From Nitrososphaerota archaeon (GTDB taxonomy: Archaea > Thermoproteota > Nitrososphaeria > Nitrososphaerales > Nitrososphaeraceae): DNA of 40,022 nt. Position 1 is the stretch's first letter. Each line of letters opens with the position of its first letter. The notes beneath the pieces are model-generated. The model was not told where the DNA came from. It did no database searches and saw only the letters and a program-made list of their open reading frames with translations. Below are positions 828 to 11,807 of this stretch, piece after piece. The position numbers and the translations under genes were made by a program. The stretch covers positions 1 through 40,022 of the forward strand of contig VBPX01000057.1 in the NCBI GenBank assembly GCA_005877075.1, written 5' to 3'.

Positions 828-2555
828 ATGGCAGATTCATATTACCTACTATTAGCAACATTCCTTCCATTAGTACTTTCTCCAGTTGCGTACGTTATAG
901 CAAAAAAAAGGGGAACAAATGCTACTACTTGGTTCTCTTTTGGTGTGTTGGCCATTTCGACAACCTCACTATTTATTTCTTCACTTACCTTACAAGGTGG
1001 AAGATCGGCTTACATAGAATCTTATCCATGGAGCCAATTTGGAAATTTCGGATTAAGAATTGATGGGTTGAGTCTACCCTTTGCAATTATTATAAATATT
1101 CTATGCACTGTTCTAGCTCTTTATTCAAAACCATACATGTTACATAAGATTAAAGAATCCTTTCATGAGAACATTAGTGAATTTAAAAAAGATATCAAAT
1201 CCGATTCAACGGATTTCAATCCTGGATCAGATACCATAGCAAATGAAGCTGGAACTCAAGTGACACTATCTAAGGCAAATGAGGAACAATATGTCAATCA
1301 CCATATGGGACTTTATTTTGCTCTTTATTTGACTTTCTCAATGGGAATGCTTGGAACAGTCCTTGCTACAAATCTAATAGAATTTTATGTGTTCTTTGAA
1401 TTAATGCTTGTCCCATCATTCTTTCTCATAGCATTTTATGGATACGGCGAAAGGCGAAGAATTGCGCTCATGTTTTTTTTCTGGACACACGTGGGAGCAG
1501 TAGTTTTGCTTTTGGGTCTCCTTGCTATGGGATTCTTTGCGGGAGGTTTCGATTATGATACAGTTAGGGCTAATGTAAGCAAGATTCCAAATGAGTGGCT
1601 AGTGCTAATAGTATTTGCTCTGGTAATTGGACTTGGTGTAAAATTAGCAGCCTTTATTCTGCATATATGGCTTCCCTATGCTCACTCTGAAGCACCTACT
1701 CCAGTGTCAGCCTTATTATCTCCAGCCATGATCGGAATTGGGGCTTATGGGTTACTGAGACTTTGGTTAGAATTACTAGTTGGCGATTATTCTCAATACA
1801 GCATTTACATCAATCTTTGGGGTCTGGCTACAATGATCTATGGTGGCGCCATGGCTATGATGCAAGACGATATCAAAAGGGTTCTGGCATATTCAAGTAT
1901 AAGTCAGATGGGTTATATTTTATTTGGGATTGGTTCTGATAGCGTTCTTGGGGTAACGGGTGGTACACTTATGTATGTGAGTCATGGATTAGGAAAGGCT
2001 ATACTCTTCATGATGGCTGGATCCATTATTCTGCAAACAGGAACAAGAAGTATGTCGAAGCTGGGAGGTCTTGCTGGGAAGATGCCTTATACAGCAGTAA
2101 TATCGATGATTGGAGCACTCACAATTATGGGGATACCTCCAACTAGTGGTTTTATGTCTGAGTGGATTTTGTTTAACGGAGTTTTACAAACAGGGATAAC
2201 TAATTCAGACATGCTTAGGATAGTAGCATTCGGTCTTGGAATACTTGCGACAGTGCTGTCTGCAGCATATATCTTGTGGATGTACAAGAGAATATTTTTT
2301 GGAAAAATTCCAGAACAATATGCAAATATCAGGGACTCCGATAGGTACGTTATTGTTACCATGGCAGTACTTGCTGCAATAACTTTGATTTTGGGGGTCT
2401 ATCCAAACCCTCTACTAAATCCAATAACGGATTACGTGCAGAATATGTTTTCAAACGATAGCACTGTACATAAAATTAGTAACATACATACTGTTAATTT
2501 GATCCACCAAAATGATCAAAACAACACAGTAATGGTTGTTGGAGGAGGTTCATAA
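828..2555 (+). CDS. nuoM: NADH-quinone oxidoreductase subunit M
   Basis: Antiporter-like subunit of complex I, 575 residues with about 14 membrane helices. It has the key glutamate in EFYVFFELMLVPSFF and the central lysine helix GVKLAAFILHIWLPYAHSE followed by APTPVSALLSP, all diagnostic of NuoM/ND4. The start at ATG 828 gives a normal N-terminus; a competing out-of-frame ATG at 818 only opens a shadow frame. Unusual is a strongly hydrophilic, charged stretch at about residues 105-158, between the segment ending LYSKPYM and the helix beginning GLYFALY. This loop is short in bacterial homologues as I know them. The last codons, Gly-Gly-Gly, create a purine-rich GGAGGAGG just before a small ORF starting at 2558. 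Confidence 0.95.
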   Translation: MADSYYLLLATFLPLVLSPVAYVIAKKRGTNATTWFSFGVLAISTTSLFISSLTLQGGRSAYIESYPWSQFGNFGLRIDGLSLPFAIIINILCTVLALYSKPYMLHKIKESFHENISEFKKDIKSDSTDFNPGSDTIANEAGTQVTLSKANEEQYVNHHMGLYFALYLTFSMGMLGTVLATNLIEFYVFFELMLVPSFFLIAFYGYGERRRIALMFFFWTHVGAVVLLLGLLAMGFFAGGFDYDTVRANVSKIPNEWLVLIVFALVIGLGVKLAAFILHIWLPYAHSEAPTPVSALLSPAMIGIGAYGLLRLWLELLVGDYSQYSIYINLWGLATMIYGGAMAMMQDDIKRVLAYSSISQMGYILFGIGSDSVLGVTGGTLMYVSHGLGKAILFMMAGSIILQTGTRSMSKLGGLAGKMPYTAVISMIGALTIMGIPPTSGFMSEWILFNGVLQTGITNSDMLRIVAFGLGILATVLSAAYILWMYKRIFFGKIPEQYANIRDSDRYVIVTMAVLAAITLILGVYPNPLLNPITDYVQNMFSNDSTVHKISNIHTVNLIHQNDQNNTVMVVGGGS

Positions 2556-2557
2556 TT

Positions 2558-2674
2558 ATGAAGATCAACATGAGTGTCATTGTACATGAGAATATCAAAA
2601 CTATTCAGAGTCTTTACAATTCTAATTGGAATTTGCTCGGTGGATTTCAAATTTGGAGAGATGAAATAAGATGA
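2558..2674 (+). CDS. Small ORF between nuoM and nuoL (38 aa, unknown)
   Basis: This 38-codon ATG frame starts two bases after the nuoM stop. Its TGA overlaps the nuoL ATG as ATGA (2671-2674). A strong Shine-Dalgarno-like GGAGGAGG at 2541-2548, formed by the last glycine codons of nuoM, lies nine bases before the ATG. The predicted peptide begins MKINMSVIVHEN and ends FQIWRDEIR; it has no clear membrane segment and I do not recognise it. The 115-base gap between nuoM and nuoL is much larger than the other junctions of the operon (-17, 24 and 14 bases), which fits an extra gene. The alternative is a leader whose translation only feeds ribosomes to nuoL. Spacing and coupling are seen directly; function is unknown. 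Confidence 0.55.
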   Translation: MKINMSVIVHENIKTIQSLYNSNWNLLGGFQIWRDEIR

Positions 2675-4749
2675 CTGACATTCAAGGAATTATTGGATTT
2701 GAAGGTATGGGAATAAATGCTTGGATGGTATGGATTCTGCCCTTTATTGGAGCTTCATTGATCCCTGCAATAGCAAAGGCAGGAAACCGTGCACGGGATT
2801 ATATCGCAGTCGGCTTTGCTTTATCTAGTGCAGTAGCGGCTGCAACACTATTGCCCCTCGGAATCGGAGGGGAGCAAGTTCATAGTCAGGTAAGTTGGAT
2901 ACCCATTTTAAAACTCCAAGCAGGAACATTGGCAGATCCTTTGTCTATTGTTATGGCTAATATCGTTGCATGGATCTCATTTCTGATCTTTATTTATTCA
3001 GTAGGATACATGCATGGCGATAAAAATCTCACAAGATACTGGTTTTTCATGCTTTTCTTTATTGGCTCTATGCAATTGATAGTTCTTTCTGATAATCTAT
3101 TAATGCTATTCTTTGGTTGGGAAGGTGTTGGACTAGCTTCTTTTGCACTTATTGGTTTCTGGTATCATGACAAGAAAAAGGACTTTGTAGGAACTCCGGG
3201 CCATTATGCAGGAGGTATACAAATGTGGGCATCCCCCTCACACGCAGGACTTAAAGCATTCCTTATGACCAAAGCAGGCGATATCATGATGCTATCAGGA
3301 ATGCTATTGATCTTTACATATGCGGGTACTTTTGGTTTTACTGAATTATTGCAAGATCAAAGCTGGGCTTTGGAGATGGCAAAGAGTAATTTGCTTGTTC
3401 CCGCTGCAGTTCTTATTTTTGGTGGGGCTATAGGAAAGTCTGCACAATTCCCACTAAATGAGTGGTTACTTGAGGCAATGACTGGACCAACACCAGTATC
3501 TGCACTTATTCATGCTGCAACAATGGTAAAAGCAGGTGTCTTTCTTGTTGCAAGAATTGGTCCTCTTTTCTTTGCAGTGGCGGCATTAAATTCCTCCCAA
3601 TTTTTTGAGGTTGTCGCATGGGTGGGAGCAATAACAGCATTCTTACTTGCAACACAAGCTATGGTTAATCCCGAAATAAAGAAGGTTCTGGCATACTCTA
3701 CTGGTTCTCAGATAGGACTAATGATGATGGGTTTGGGAATTGCTGGACTTTCTACATCATTCGTAGATGGTTTTACTGCTGGATTCTTTCATTTGATGAG
3801 TCATGCAATGTTTAAGGCATCATTGTTTATGGGTGCAGGCGCTGTGTTACACGCTGTTGGTTCCAGATTCATGACAGATATGGGTGGGCTTAGAAGTAAA
3901 ATGAAGAAGACGTTCATATTTATGATGATGTCAGGTCTCTCCCTTGCTGCAGCTCCATTTATCACTTCTGGTTTTTGGAGTAAGGATGCTATCCTTGCTT
4001 CTGTTCTCGAATCGGGATATCATTACTCGTGGGTTCTCTTTGGTATTGCAGTGACAGTATCATTCATGACTGCCTTTTACACTTTTAGGATGCTCGGTAT
4101 GACTTTCTTTGGAAATAAAAGTAAATTTGTACAAGAAACGGAACACCATCACCCTGTTCATGAAGTTGGAAGTGTAATGTGGATTCCATTTGCTATACTG
4201 GCAATTGCTAGCATTGCGGTAGGTTTAATTGGATTTGCATTTGAACATCAGCTCCATGAAATGTTCTCGGCATACCTCGCAAATACCTTTAATATCCATG
4301 CGCCTGTTCCCGGAGGAGAAGGGATCGAAGCTAAGAGCGGAGCCGAATTTTTGGATTTGCAAGGACTTAATCCAATTGCCGTCAGCGCCTCAGTTGGAGC
4401 ATTTGCGTTAGGTGCGATTATTGGAGGAGTTGTATATATGGGAAGAGTCATAAATCCGGAGATTGTGTCACGAAATATCATATCAAGGGCAGTATGGAAA
4501 TTCTTCTTCAATAGATGGTACCTTAATACTGCATTATACTGGGTAGCCGTTATAGGACCATTGGCTTTATATCGTATCGTTTGGAGATACTTTGAAAGTA
4601 CAATAATTGATGGAATCAATCCTGGACTTCAGGGAACAATGACATATTTCTCAAAGGTAATAAAGGCTGGACAGACCGGAATTGCACAGACCTATCTTTA
4701 TGTTTTCGCTGCAGGCATATTAATAATCGTCATGTTACTGTTTTTATAG
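2671..4749 (+). CDS. nuoL: NADH-quinone oxidoreductase subunit L
   Basis: Largest antiporter-like subunit of complex I, 692 residues, with the NuoL/ND5 signatures FFGWEGVGLASFALIGFWY (conserved glutamate), GKSAQFPLNEWLLEAMTGPT and PVSALIHAATMVKAGVFLVAR (lysine and histidine helix). The C-terminal half contains the long lateral-helix region and a last membrane segment near the end. It starts at an ATG overlapping the stop of the upstream small ORF and ends 14 bases before nuoN. It would conduct one of the pumped protons. The length is within the usual range for the family. Confidence 0.95.
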   Translation: MTDIQGIIGFEGMGINAWMVWILPFIGASLIPAIAKAGNRARDYIAVGFALSSAVAAATLLPLGIGGEQVHSQVSWIPILKLQAGTLADPLSIVMANIVAWISFLIFIYSVGYMHGDKNLTRYWFFMLFFIGSMQLIVLSDNLLMLFFGWEGVGLASFALIGFWYHDKKKDFVGTPGHYAGGIQMWASPSHAGLKAFLMTKAGDIMMLSGMLLIFTYAGTFGFTELLQDQSWALEMAKSNLLVPAAVLIFGGAIGKSAQFPLNEWLLEAMTGPTPVSALIHAATMVKAGVFLVARIGPLFFAVAALNSSQFFEVVAWVGAITAFLLATQAMVNPEIKKVLAYSTGSQIGLMMMGLGIAGLSTSFVDGFTAGFFHLMSHAMFKASLFMGAGAVLHAVGSRFMTDMGGLRSKMKKTFIFMMMSGLSLAAAPFITSGFWSKDAILASVLESGYHYSWVLFGIAVTVSFMTAFYTFRMLGMTFFGNKSKFVQETEHHHPVHEVGSVMWIPFAILAIASIAVGLIGFAFEHQLHEMFSAYLANTFNIHAPVPGGEGIEAKSGAEFLDLQGLNPIAVSASVGAFALGAIIGGVVYMGRVINPEIVSRNIISRAVWKFFFNRWYLNTALYWVAVIGPLALYRIVWRYFESTIIDGINPGLQGTMTYFSKVIKAGQTGIAQTYLYVFAAGILIIVMLLFL

Positions 4750-4763
4750 GAGTAAAATAGAAC

Positions 4764-6272
4764 ATGGATTTTCTATCAACTCCATTATTAGTAACGGTAA
4801 TACTAGGTTCAGTCGGGCTTGCTATTCCGATTATTGATTCATTAAAAAAGGAAAGGGGCTCTAATAACAAACTATACTGTGGCATATCAGTCGGTGCAAT
4901 ATTACTCATCATTGGTATCATTATTTTTAGAATAATATCTGGAGAACAGATCCCAACCATCGAATTTGGTAAGGGTATGCTTGCAGATGATATGTTTGGC
5001 TCTTTCTTCGCAATATCATTGTTGATTGTATCCATAATGGTAACTGCATCCTCATGGAATTTCATGAAAAATAAAAGTAATCCTGCGGCGTATTATTCCT
5101 TGATCCTAATATCTAGTATTGGAATGATCCTCATTGCCTATTCTACAGATCTTGTAATGCTTTTTGTTTCTTGGGAGCTCATGTCAATTCCCACATATGC
5201 ATTGGCCGCATTTTCAAAACGCGATCCTATCTCAAATGAAGCAGCAATCAAATATTTCCTATTTGGCGCTCTTTCTTCAGCAATACTAGTACTTGCTATA
5301 GGATTAGTATACGGAATAACTGGAACCACAAATATTGGACAGGCAATAATTTCAATGGTAAACTTACAACAAGATCTTGTTCCTATCAGTTTGTTTGCTC
5401 TGGCATTATTCATAGCTGGGTTTGGATTTAAAATGGGTCTTGTTCCGTTTCATATGTGGCTTCCAGATGCATACGAGGGCGCACCGACAACAATCGGAGC
5501 GTTACTGGCTGCAGGTACAAAAAAGGCAGGTTTTGCTGCTGCAATTCGTGTAATAATTCTCGCTATTTTTGTATTACACCTTGAATGGTCTATGACTCTG
5601 GCGATAATAGCTATCTTTACGATGACGTTGGGTAATCTGGGAGCACTTATCCAAAAGAGCGTTCCTCGAATATTGGCTTATTCAAGCATCGCTCAGGCAG
5701 GGTATATAATGATAGGTCTTGCGTTGGCTCCTTATAATGATCAAGCTCTTGCTGGTTCTCTCTTCCATATTATTAATCACGCTGTTATGAAGGCTGCCGC
5801 TTTCATAGCAGTTGCCGCAGTAGCACTCACACTTACAAGTTATAGTATTGAAAAGTACAGAGGACTTGCAAAACGTATGCCTCTGACGGCAATAGCCTTA
5901 TCAATATCATTGTTGGCATTGGCAGGAGTTCCGCCCCTTAATGGATTTTGGAGCAAGCTGGTACTATTTAGTGTGGCTATAAATACCGGACCGGAAGTTT
6001 GGTGGGGACCATATTTGGCAATTGCTGGGGTTCTTAATAGCGCACTCTCGCTTGGATACTATGCATGGATTATGAGAAAAATGTACATGGAAGATTCACC
6101 TGATACTTCTAAAGTCAAAGAACCAAGGGCAATAGTTGCAGTACTTATCTTTGCTATGATATTCATGGTAGGCTTTGGTATATGGCATGCGCCAATCCTA
6201 CAATTTGCTACAAATTCGGTACCAAATCTATCACAGCTCACTGCCATACTACCTTCGATACCCTTAAAATAG
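4764..6272 (+). CDS. nuoN: NADH-quinone oxidoreductase subunit N
   Basis: Third antiporter-like subunit, 502 residues with about 14 membrane helices. Visible signatures are FVSWELMSIPTYALAAFSK (conserved glutamate) and GFKMGLVPFHMWLPDAYEG followed by APTTIGALLAAGTKKAGF (lysine helices), matching NuoN/ND2. The start at ATG 4764 is preceded by a GGAG within the nuoL-nuoN junction. It is the last gene of the complex I run; the next gene is on the opposite strand, so the operon ends here. I see no clear hairpin terminator in the 6273-6351 gap. Confidence 0.95.
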   Translation: MDFLSTPLLVTVILGSVGLAIPIIDSLKKERGSNNKLYCGISVGAILLIIGIIIFRIISGEQIPTIEFGKGMLADDMFGSFFAISLLIVSIMVTASSWNFMKNKSNPAAYYSLILISSIGMILIAYSTDLVMLFVSWELMSIPTYALAAFSKRDPISNEAAIKYFLFGALSSAILVLAIGLVYGITGTTNIGQAIISMVNLQQDLVPISLFALALFIAGFGFKMGLVPFHMWLPDAYEGAPTTIGALLAAGTKKAGFAAAIRVIILAIFVLHLEWSMTLAIIAIFTMTLGNLGALIQKSVPRILAYSSIAQAGYIMIGLALAPYNDQALAGSLFHIINHAVMKAAAFIAVAAVALTLTSYSIEKYRGLAKRMPLTAIALSISLLALAGVPPLNGFWSKLVLFSVAINTGPEVWWGPYLAIAGVLNSALSLGYYAWIMRKMYMEDSPDTSKVKEPRAIVAVLIFAMIFMVGFGIWHAPILQFATNSVPNLSQLTAILPSIPLK

Positions 6273-9781: not shown

Positions 9782-10066
9782 ATGTGTTTTATTGATAAAG
9801 ACGGAAATATTCTTGTACCTAAAACAGTTAGGCCTGTAATGGATTATGAACCAACGATACTTGGAGAAAAAAAAGGGTCAAAAAAACAATATAGGCATGG
9901 AAACTTGCACATACGGGAATATGATAGTTTTTACAGCATTCATTATGACAAAATAGATCCTCGCATCGATCCTTTTGGGCACATATTGGTTGACGCCTCA
10001 AAATATTTATCTGGTCTTATCCTTCTTTCTGCTTTTTCTGACTTTCTTATAAGTAGAGATAAATGA
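9782..10066 (+). CDS. Conserved-looking small protein of unknown function (94 aa)
   Basis: A 94-residue soluble protein without signal peptide, beginning MCFIDKDGNILVPKTVRP. It is rich in charged and aromatic residues, with HGNLHIREYDSFYSIHYDKI in the middle, and ends in a hydrophobic helix YLSGLILLSAFSDFLI. A TATA-like TTTTATATC at 9752-9760 lies about 27 bases before the ATG, supporting a real leaderless gene. The ABC1 kinase gene follows after 100 bases on the same strand and may be co-transcribed. I do not recognise a family. Confidence 0.7.
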   Translation: MCFIDKDGNILVPKTVRPVMDYEPTILGEKKGSKKQYRHGNLHIREYDSFYSIHYDKIDPRIDPFGHILVDASKYLSGLILLSAFSDFLISRDK

Positions 10067-10166
10067 AATAACTTGATTGTTAACTTGTTTGATTTGATTC
10101 TAGTATATTCTGGATCTTGTAAACCTGGTATTTTTTCCAATATTTTGACAGGGCGAAAAAGGAATT

Positions 10167-11807
10167 TTGATAGAAGATAGCAAAGAAATACTGGAATCTG
10201 CCATAGAGGGTGAAAACAAGAAACTTATCATTGATTTCAAAAAGCCTTCAATTTGGCTTATAGTCAGGACAATTTTGAAACTAATTCCAGTTATTATTTA
10301 TCTTAGGAAGGACAGAAAGGAATGGGTCAAAAAAGAAGGCAGAAATGTCAATGAGGAAAAATTCAGAAAACATGCAGAAACCGCGTTAAAGACTTTTGTA
10401 TCGCTTGGACCATCATACATAAAACTCGGTCAATGGTTGTCTTCAAGAGCAGATCTATTACCTCAACCATACTTGGATGTGCTAGAAAAACTTCAAGATG
10501 ATGTTCAACCAGCCCCATTTTCAGACGTCAGACCAATTCTTGAAAAAGAGCTTGGAATGCCCGAAGATATTTTCGAACATTTTGACACTTCAGCAATTTC
10601 TGGCGCAAGTTTAGGTCAAGTATATCGTGCGAAGTACAAGGAAAGGGACGTAGTCGTAAAGATAAGCAGACCCAACATTGAAGAAACAATTGGGAAAAAC
10701 ATCTATATATTGAAAAAACTGCTTCCGATAGCCACCAGATTTATTGATGAAAATCTAAGATTTTCAGCTGAAGGCATGCTCTCTCAATTTATTGAAACAG
10801 TATATGAAGAAATGGATTACAAAATCGAAGCGAAAAATTTACTTGACATCAAAGATAATCTGAAAGAGGATAGATCGGTCATTATCCCAAAAGTTTATCT
10901 TGATAGAACTTCTCGACATGTGATTACACTAGAGTACCTGCCTGGGACAAAAATAACAGATATCAGAACACTGAATCAGCAAAACATTGATAGAGCAAAA
11001 TTAGTGTATCGAATACATAGACTTTTTTTTAAAATGTTACTACGCCACAGCATATTTCACGCCGATCCACATCCTGGTAATATTTCAGTAAGTAACGACG
11101 GAAAAATAATACTTTATGATTTCGGAATGGTTGGAAGACTTGATGACGAAACAAGAAGAAGATTGGTTAGACTATATCTCGGTCTCGTGGATAAAGATTC
11201 GGTAAGAACTACAGATGTGTTGATAGAACTAGGAACACTTGAGCCTTCTGTTGACAGAAGACTAGTAGAAAAGGGCCTGGATCTAAGTATTCAATCACTG
11301 CATGGTAAAAAGGTAGATAGAATGGAGGTAAAAGCTCTTCAAGACTTGGCAAATAAAACTCTGAGTAGATTCCCTTTTCGTTTGCCTAAAAATCTTGCAC
11401 TGTATATGCGAATGGCATCAATACTTGAAGGTATTTATCATCATCATCATGTAAGATTTCAATTTGTTCGGGTATTGGTAAACCTGCTTGAAGAAGAAGG
11501 ATTAATTAAGGAAGCTTATATTGAAGAATTTAAGAGATACGTGGTCAGATTTGCAAAGGGTATAGAAGTATCGAGCGAACTTGCACCGATGATAAAACAA
11601 TATTTGACTGACCAAAAAACAACTGGCAAAAGTAAAATGAATTCAAACGTTCTTCCCATTAGTATTATCTCGTCTTCCATTATTATTGGCTCAACACTAC
11701 TCTTTCCTTATGAAAGGAATTTCTCGTGCCTAGGATTTGCTTTATCTGCTGTTTTACTGTTTGGAACTTTAATATTTAATAAAATCAATAAAAATAAGCA
11801 ATATTAA
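10167..11807 (+). CDS. ABC1/UbiB-family atypical protein kinase
   Basis: A 546-residue UbiB/ABC1 family protein. In other organisms these ATP-binding proteins support isoprenoid quinone synthesis or lipid homeostasis at the membrane. Diagnostic segments are the KxGQ motif in SYIKLGQWLSSRADLLP (Lys and Gln near residues 86-89), ASLGQVYRAKYKERDVVVKI (nucleotide loop and catalytic lysine), HADPHPGNI (near 298-306) and YDFGMVG (near 317-323). Two hydrophobic helices at the C-terminus (about 495-540) should anchor it in the membrane, as in bacterial UbiB. The only usable start is TTG 10167, since an in-frame TGA lies at 10146. Its substrate is unknown; a role in archaeal menaquinone-type metabolism is inference. 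Confidence 0.88.
   Translation: MIEDSKEILESAIEGENKKLIIDFKKPSIWLIVRTILKLIPVIIYLRKDRKEWVKKEGRNVNEEKFRKHAETALKTFVSLGPSYIKLGQWLSSRADLLPQPYLDVLEKLQDDVQPAPFSDVRPILEKELGMPEDIFEHFDTSAISGASLGQVYRAKYKERDVVVKISRPNIEETIGKNIYILKKLLPIATRFIDENLRFSAEGMLSQFIETVYEEMDYKIEAKNLLDIKDNLKEDRSVIIPKVYLDRTSRHVITLEYLPGTKITDIRTLNQQNIDRAKLVYRIHRLFFKMLLRHSIFHADPHPGNISVSNDGKIILYDFGMVGRLDDETRRRLVRLYLGLVDKDSVRTTDVLIELGTLEPSVDRRLVEKGLDLSIQSLHGKKVDRMEVKALQDLANKTLSRFPFRLPKNLALYMRMASILEGIYHHHHVRFQFVRVLVNLLEEEGLIKEAYIEEFKRYVVRFAKGIEVSSELAPMIKQYLTDQKTTGKSKMNSNVLPISIISSSIIIGSTLLFPYERNFSCLGFALSAVLLFGTLIFNKINKNKQY

Follow-up and report, generated by a model that had tools for sequence, protein, structure and literature searches.

A 38-codon open frame between nuoM and nuoL, conserved within a genus of Nitrososphaeraceae, as a probable translational bridge

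The window, i.e., the whole stretch of 40,022 nt that was analysed, belongs to a member of the Nitrososphaeraceae, a family of soil ammonia oxidisers, and begins within a complex I operon in which nuoJ, nuoK, nuoM, nuoL, and nuoN (4764–6272) follow in succession. On the forward strand, nuoM (828–2555, 575 aa), assigned by the NCBIfam model TIGR01972 (334.6 bits, cut-off 263.8), ends with the stop codon TAA at 2553–2555, and nuoL (2671–4749, 692 aa), assigned by the NCBIfam model TIGR01974 (475.3 bits, cut-off 407.5), begins with the ATG at 2671–2673. The products of these two genes are antiporter-like subunits of one complex. The gap of 115 nt that separates the upstream from the downstream partner is spanned by a small ORF of 38 sense codons (2558–2674, forward strand), whose ATG lies 2 nt past the nuoM stop, with TT in between, and whose stop codon TGA (2672–2674) overlaps the nuoL start in an ATGA (2671–2674). 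The junctions are accordingly +2 nt from nuoM to the ORF and −4 nt from the ORF to nuoL, both within a spacing of about 20 nt, and, by coordinates, each step, from nuoM to the ORF and from the ORF to nuoL, shifts the reading frame by −1. Duplex energies were calculated with the 16S 3' end of the same genome (...ATCACCTCCTT), with which the Shine-Dalgarno sequence of the small ORF, GGAGGAGGTT (2541–2550, forward strand), located inside the last nuoM codons, pairs at −12.6 kcal/mol with a spacing of 7 nt. In addition, nuoL has a weaker Shine-Dalgarno region of its own, GGAGAGATGA (2655–2664, forward strand), within the 3' end of the small ORF (−7.1 kcal/mol, spacing 6). Thus, the anatomy given in the preliminary description, namely a ribosome site made from nuoM glycine codons, a start two bases after the nuoM stop, and a 38-codon ORF ending in an ATGA overlap with nuoL, was confirmed.

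Twelve genomes of the genus, fragmentary MAGs, were compared, among which six (including that of the window) yielded a nuoL match and the other six none. The nuoM–nuoL junction was present in all six genomes with a match, with gap lengths of 115, 115, 115, 115, 111, and 58 nt, and in each of them an ATG behind nuoM opens a frame (38, 38, 38, 38, 35, and 20 codons, respectively) that leads to the nuoL start and ends −1 to +7 nt from it. Four of the six species additionally have an in-frame ATG that forms an ATGA with the nuoM stop. Counted over the six species from behind the ATG to 3 nt before nuoL, the ORF frame contained no stop codon, whereas the other two forward frames contained 24 and 18 and the reverse frames 7, 12, and 8. 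The comparison of this gap in related genomes, which the preliminary description had proposed as a check, therefore revealed a conserved open frame in every congener with the junction, and not stops or frameshifts throughout. The indels in the gap alignment (+3 and −3 in G005, −57 in G008) all keep the frame, the last having removed half of the ORF and left 20 codons in G008; the sole frame-shifting indel is a 4-column gap near the 3' end in G004, readable as a shared −3 plus a −1, which puts a TAG a single base ahead of nuoL. The adjacent spacers, by comparison, differ by single bases (23 or 24 nt between nuoK and nuoM, and 12, 13, or 14 nt between nuoL and nuoN). Moreover, the start block, which runs from the GGAGG past the nuoM stop up to the ATG, was invariant at 14 of 20 positions in the six species, while the ORF body was not conserved, and nuoL kept its own Shine-Dalgarno sequence in all six congeners (−7.1 to −10.9 kcal/mol). 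The nuoL start codon is TTG in two of them, L035 (G002) and L034 (G008), and these TTG starts might accompany a dependence on coupling. The possibility that the gap is a repeat or mobile element was dropped because it is single-copy in its genome: a search of the 12 genomes gave only the self match at length, and the next matches were short (E 0.026 or worse). A query from a congener (L012:1355–1503), which lacked the first 13 nt of the gap at that locus and included the nuoL start, likewise gave no sign of a repeat or mobile element.

The preliminary description had also regarded so precise a fit of the ORF as unusual for a chance frame, a claim that proved weak within the one genome and well founded across species. 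Among dinucleotide-shuffled versions of the gap of the window, 3% contained an ATG-started bridge, and 8% were open downstream of the ATG when it was kept in place. A census of the window and 19 further stretches (together 308 kb, 16% of the 1.97-Mb genome) found bridges, with ATG, GTG, or TTG starts, in 5 of 74 co-directional gaps of 50–300 nt against 1.45 expected, but only two of the five start with ATG, namely the nuoM–nuoL ORF and a 62-aa ORF. The latter looks by eye like Spt4/RpoE'', a small protein associated with RNA polymerase, and would thus be a real small gene overlooked by the crude gene caller. Within the window, a TTG-started ORF of 35 codons (10066–10180) crosses a 100-nt gap between gene calls of 285 and 1641 nt and is probably due to chance, its shuffle figure being 14%. 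Considering these single-genome figures, the TTG-started bridges at other gaps, and the inflation of apparent conservation by shared ancestry, the nuoM–nuoL frame could be read as a functionless chance frame inherited in an AT-rich spacer. However, nucleotide identity in the gap body (39–76%) is near that at the fourfold-degenerate sites of nuoL in the same species pairs (40–57%), indicating that the openness does not merely reflect recent ancestry, and despite this near-saturated divergence no stop was found in six species and the indels are mostly in threes. Furthermore, in neutral simulations on a tree with the topology of nuoL, fitted to the few sites of the gap under a single substitution model (HKY), all six sequences stayed open in 0.058% of 204,148 runs from an open root, and the other five in 0.065% of 150,000 runs from the real sequence of the window; with branches scaled by 0.7 and 0.5, the latter figure rose to 0.27% and 0.79%, so that the simulated probability is 0.0006 to 0.008 depending on branch scale. 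An inherited chance frame is thus an unlikely explanation.

The conserved frame, start, and Shine-Dalgarno sequence would also be expected of a genuine, fast-evolving small protein, e.g., a genus-specific accessory complex I subunit or assembly factor, and complex I often acquires small supernumerary subunits. Against this reading, the codon model (36 codons, six species, with the last nine codons of G004 masked because of its frameshift) gave an omega of 1.19 for the ORF, not better than 1 (2dlnL 0.42), and an omega of 0.5 fitted worse by 5.5 lnL, so that values of 0.5 or below were rejected; seven 36-codon windows of nuoL gave 0.02–0.15, and even the variable nuoM tail gave 0.49. The Ka/Ks comparison suggested in the preliminary description thus showed a peptide that is not constrained. 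Differences were flat across codon positions (0.38, 0.48, and 0.40), no coding-like codon usage was seen over the six species (z 0.94), and no conserved peptide motif was found across the six congeners. The small peptides had no match in Pfam, NCBIfam, PHROGs, or PDB sequences (a set of searches that omitted the peptide of G021 and, for PHROGs, that of G008), and no relative of the ORF was found within its own genome. Although an omega near 1 could mask constraint at a few positions, or positive selection, a product of 20–38 aa, of which G008 keeps only 20 codons, and which is absent from most other genera, including those in which nuoL abuts nuoM, is improbable as a subunit. Of the two roles that the preliminary description had offered, accessory subunit and translational bridge, the former is therefore disfavoured, and the latter is favoured by the frame kept in six of six congeners and by the near absence of a gap in most relatives. 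As a further alternative, the ORF might act as a regulatory leader similar to mgtQ, its translation opening or closing an RNA structure that masks the start of nuoL. Salmonella (PMC8092293) provides a precedent in a similar position, between mgtC and mgtB; however, besides the missing peptide motif, no consensus RNA structure was recovered across the gap (six weak pairs, −2.1 kcal/mol, no compensatory changes), making such a leader very unlikely. The succession of −1 frames from nuoM through the ORF to nuoL would likewise permit a −1 frameshifted extension, with the ORF as a tail at the C-terminus of NuoM or at the N-terminus of NuoL, but a strong Shine-Dalgarno sequence and an ATG are conserved instead, the amino acids are unconstrained, and no conserved slippery heptamer was seen by eye in the alignment, and hence this reading deserves hardly any credence.

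The nuoM–nuoL junction was also surveyed across the order (150 loci, seven of them skipped for want of an adjacent gene, and 129 distinct junctions, identical ones being counted once; the 80 named loci overlap in species with some of the genomes numbered with G). The nuoL start lay no more than 20 nt from the nuoM stop in 112 of the 129 junctions, 21–50 nt in 6, and more than 50 nt in 11. The start closest to nuoM was picked each time, a choice biased towards short gaps, and in five rows a codon that is not a start had to be used. An ORF of this kind is absent from most other genera. The nuoM end in genera g9 and g12 is similarly rich in GGAGG and stands directly before the nuoL start (for example in G084, with a 1-nt gap, and G059), suggesting that the ATG of the small ORF occupies the place that the nuoL ATG holds elsewhere and that about 113 nt of extra sequence lies behind it. 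Two other genera also have a long gap with an ATG-started bridge: in G016 (L150, another genus), 147 nt are bridged by a lysine-rich ORF of 47 codons that shares a TAATG with nuoL (shuffle chance 0.0045), and in G021 (L149), whose three congeners have gaps of 8–21 nt, 111 nt are bridged by 40 codons (shuffle chance 0.064). A loose alignment hints that the G021 gap might once have belonged to the nuoM tail. Long gaps also occur without a bridge, i.e., in G014 (L010), which has the longest nuoM–nuoL gap seen (259 nt), and in G031/L030 (57 nt), and in the 67-nt gap of G055 a 16-codon ORF stops 14 nt short of nuoL; bridging of long nuoM–nuoL gaps is thus not compulsory. Under a bridge rule that was fixed after the data had been seen, 9 of 12 junctions longer than 50 nt qualified (the six of the genus, G016, G021, and L017, the last just reaching the cut-off and having a nuoL start that is uncertain) and G014, G055, and L030 failed, G060 having been left out of the count because a run of N/X made its nuoM end spurious. 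The argument from the wider lineage is consequently weaker than that from the genus. Among shorter gaps, those of 40–45 nt in genus g7 (L127/G054, L129/G058, and L011/G017) carry a near-identical mini-ORF of nine codons in three of four readable members, ending 6–7 nt before nuoL. In L025 (G034:C33:14584–16464), from another family, the nuoL match contains one in-frame TGA, which reflects a pseudogene, an assembly error, or recoding.

On these grounds, the 38-codon frame probably serves as a translational bridge that couples nuoM and nuoL through two termination–reinitiation steps, a reading to which we assign a probability of about 0.66. Ancestrally, nuoL would have stood directly behind nuoM and been served by the GGAGG at the nuoM 3' end, until, in the ancestor of the genus, about 113 nt was presumably inserted between the initiation site and nuoL. 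The old initiation site would now open a filler ORF with a stop that overlaps the start of nuoL. After finishing nuoM, a ribosome would reinitiate 2 nt further on, or at the overlapping ATGA in the four species that have it, read some 38 unimportant codons, stop on the nuoL start, and reinitiate there, and selection would hold the openness of the frame, the positions of its ends, and the initiation signal, leaving the amino acids free. From the sequence comparison we infer that the ORF is translated, that reinitiation takes place, and that coupling is the benefit. Reporter work in Haloferax and E. coli (Huber et al., 2023, PMC10666635) found reinitiation almost lost once stop and start are about 20 nt apart, implying that a gap of 115 nt should uncouple nuoM from nuoL; it also found that 15 nt of an upstream gene can suffice for reinitiation. 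A bridge would account together for a frame that stays open, ends and a start signal that are preserved, indels mostly in multiples of three, and a peptide free to drift, whereas a subunit would account for all but the last. On the other hand, nuoL has its own Shine-Dalgarno sequence and could be initiated independently, which counts against a bridge, as do the unbridged gaps of G014 and G031, the short-falling ORF of G055, the frameshift in G004, and the restriction of the evidence to six species.

It is conceivable, though somewhat doubtful, that relay ORFs occur in nature as a general means of repair, of which the nuoM–nuoL junction may provide examples in three archaeal genera. In that case, spacer DNA that enters a junction whose two genes have to be read by the same ribosomes would survive only with a through-going frame, after which only the frame and its ends would come under selection. 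Such ORFs would make up a class that is translated and conserved and yet irrelevant as protein, which surveys of microproteins would either miscount as genes or discard as noise. In addition, the junction offers comparative evidence on an open dispute, i.e., whether ribosomes that have terminated scan across long spacers or require an adjacent stop and start, since a frame kept open for the sake of distance alone would favour the latter view on an evolutionary timescale. More generally, 'conserved small ORF' and 'small protein' are separate claims, which can be distinguished by openness without amino-acid constraint.

A published account of the nuoM–nuoL ORF was not found in the open-licence literature searched, but several known systems resemble it in part. 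Archaeal examples of ATGA overlaps and Shine-Dalgarno sequences in coupled gene pairs appear in two reports (Huber et al. 2019, PMC6728339; PMC10666635), and the present junction shares with such termination–reinitiation pairs the ATGA overlap, the Shine-Dalgarno sequence at the junction, the membership of both products in one complex, and the need for very short distances; it differs in that the real partners, nuoM and nuoL, lie 115 nt apart and a third, apparently functionless ORF would restore two short distances. Mycobacterial interspersed repetitive units (MIRUs), as portrayed in the review PMC12548453, are start-codon inserts that can be tolerated because they carry an ORF coupled at −4 nt to the gene behind it, and the present ORF similarly overlaps the host genes at the insertion site; unlike these repeated and apparently mobile units, the nuoM–nuoL gap is single-copy and has diverged vertically across six species. 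Similar to mgtQ, a short intergenic operon ORF in Salmonella that promotes downstream translation, the ORF lies between two genes of an operon, but mgtQ is reported to work by way of acidic codons and alternative stem-loops (PMC8092293), and neither was seen here. The same review (PMC12548453) also covers short upstream ORFs with no role beyond ribosome delivery, as well as the synthetic bicistronic design; in both, as would hold here, the peptide is irrelevant and the stop lies near or overlaps the downstream start, whereas the nuoM–nuoL ORF would be fed from an upstream gene and hence be a relay rather than a leader. The present candidate would work like known delivery ORFs, but it is archaeal, single-copy, and apparently upstream-fed, and the sequence comparison indicates that its frame, and not its peptide, has been kept.
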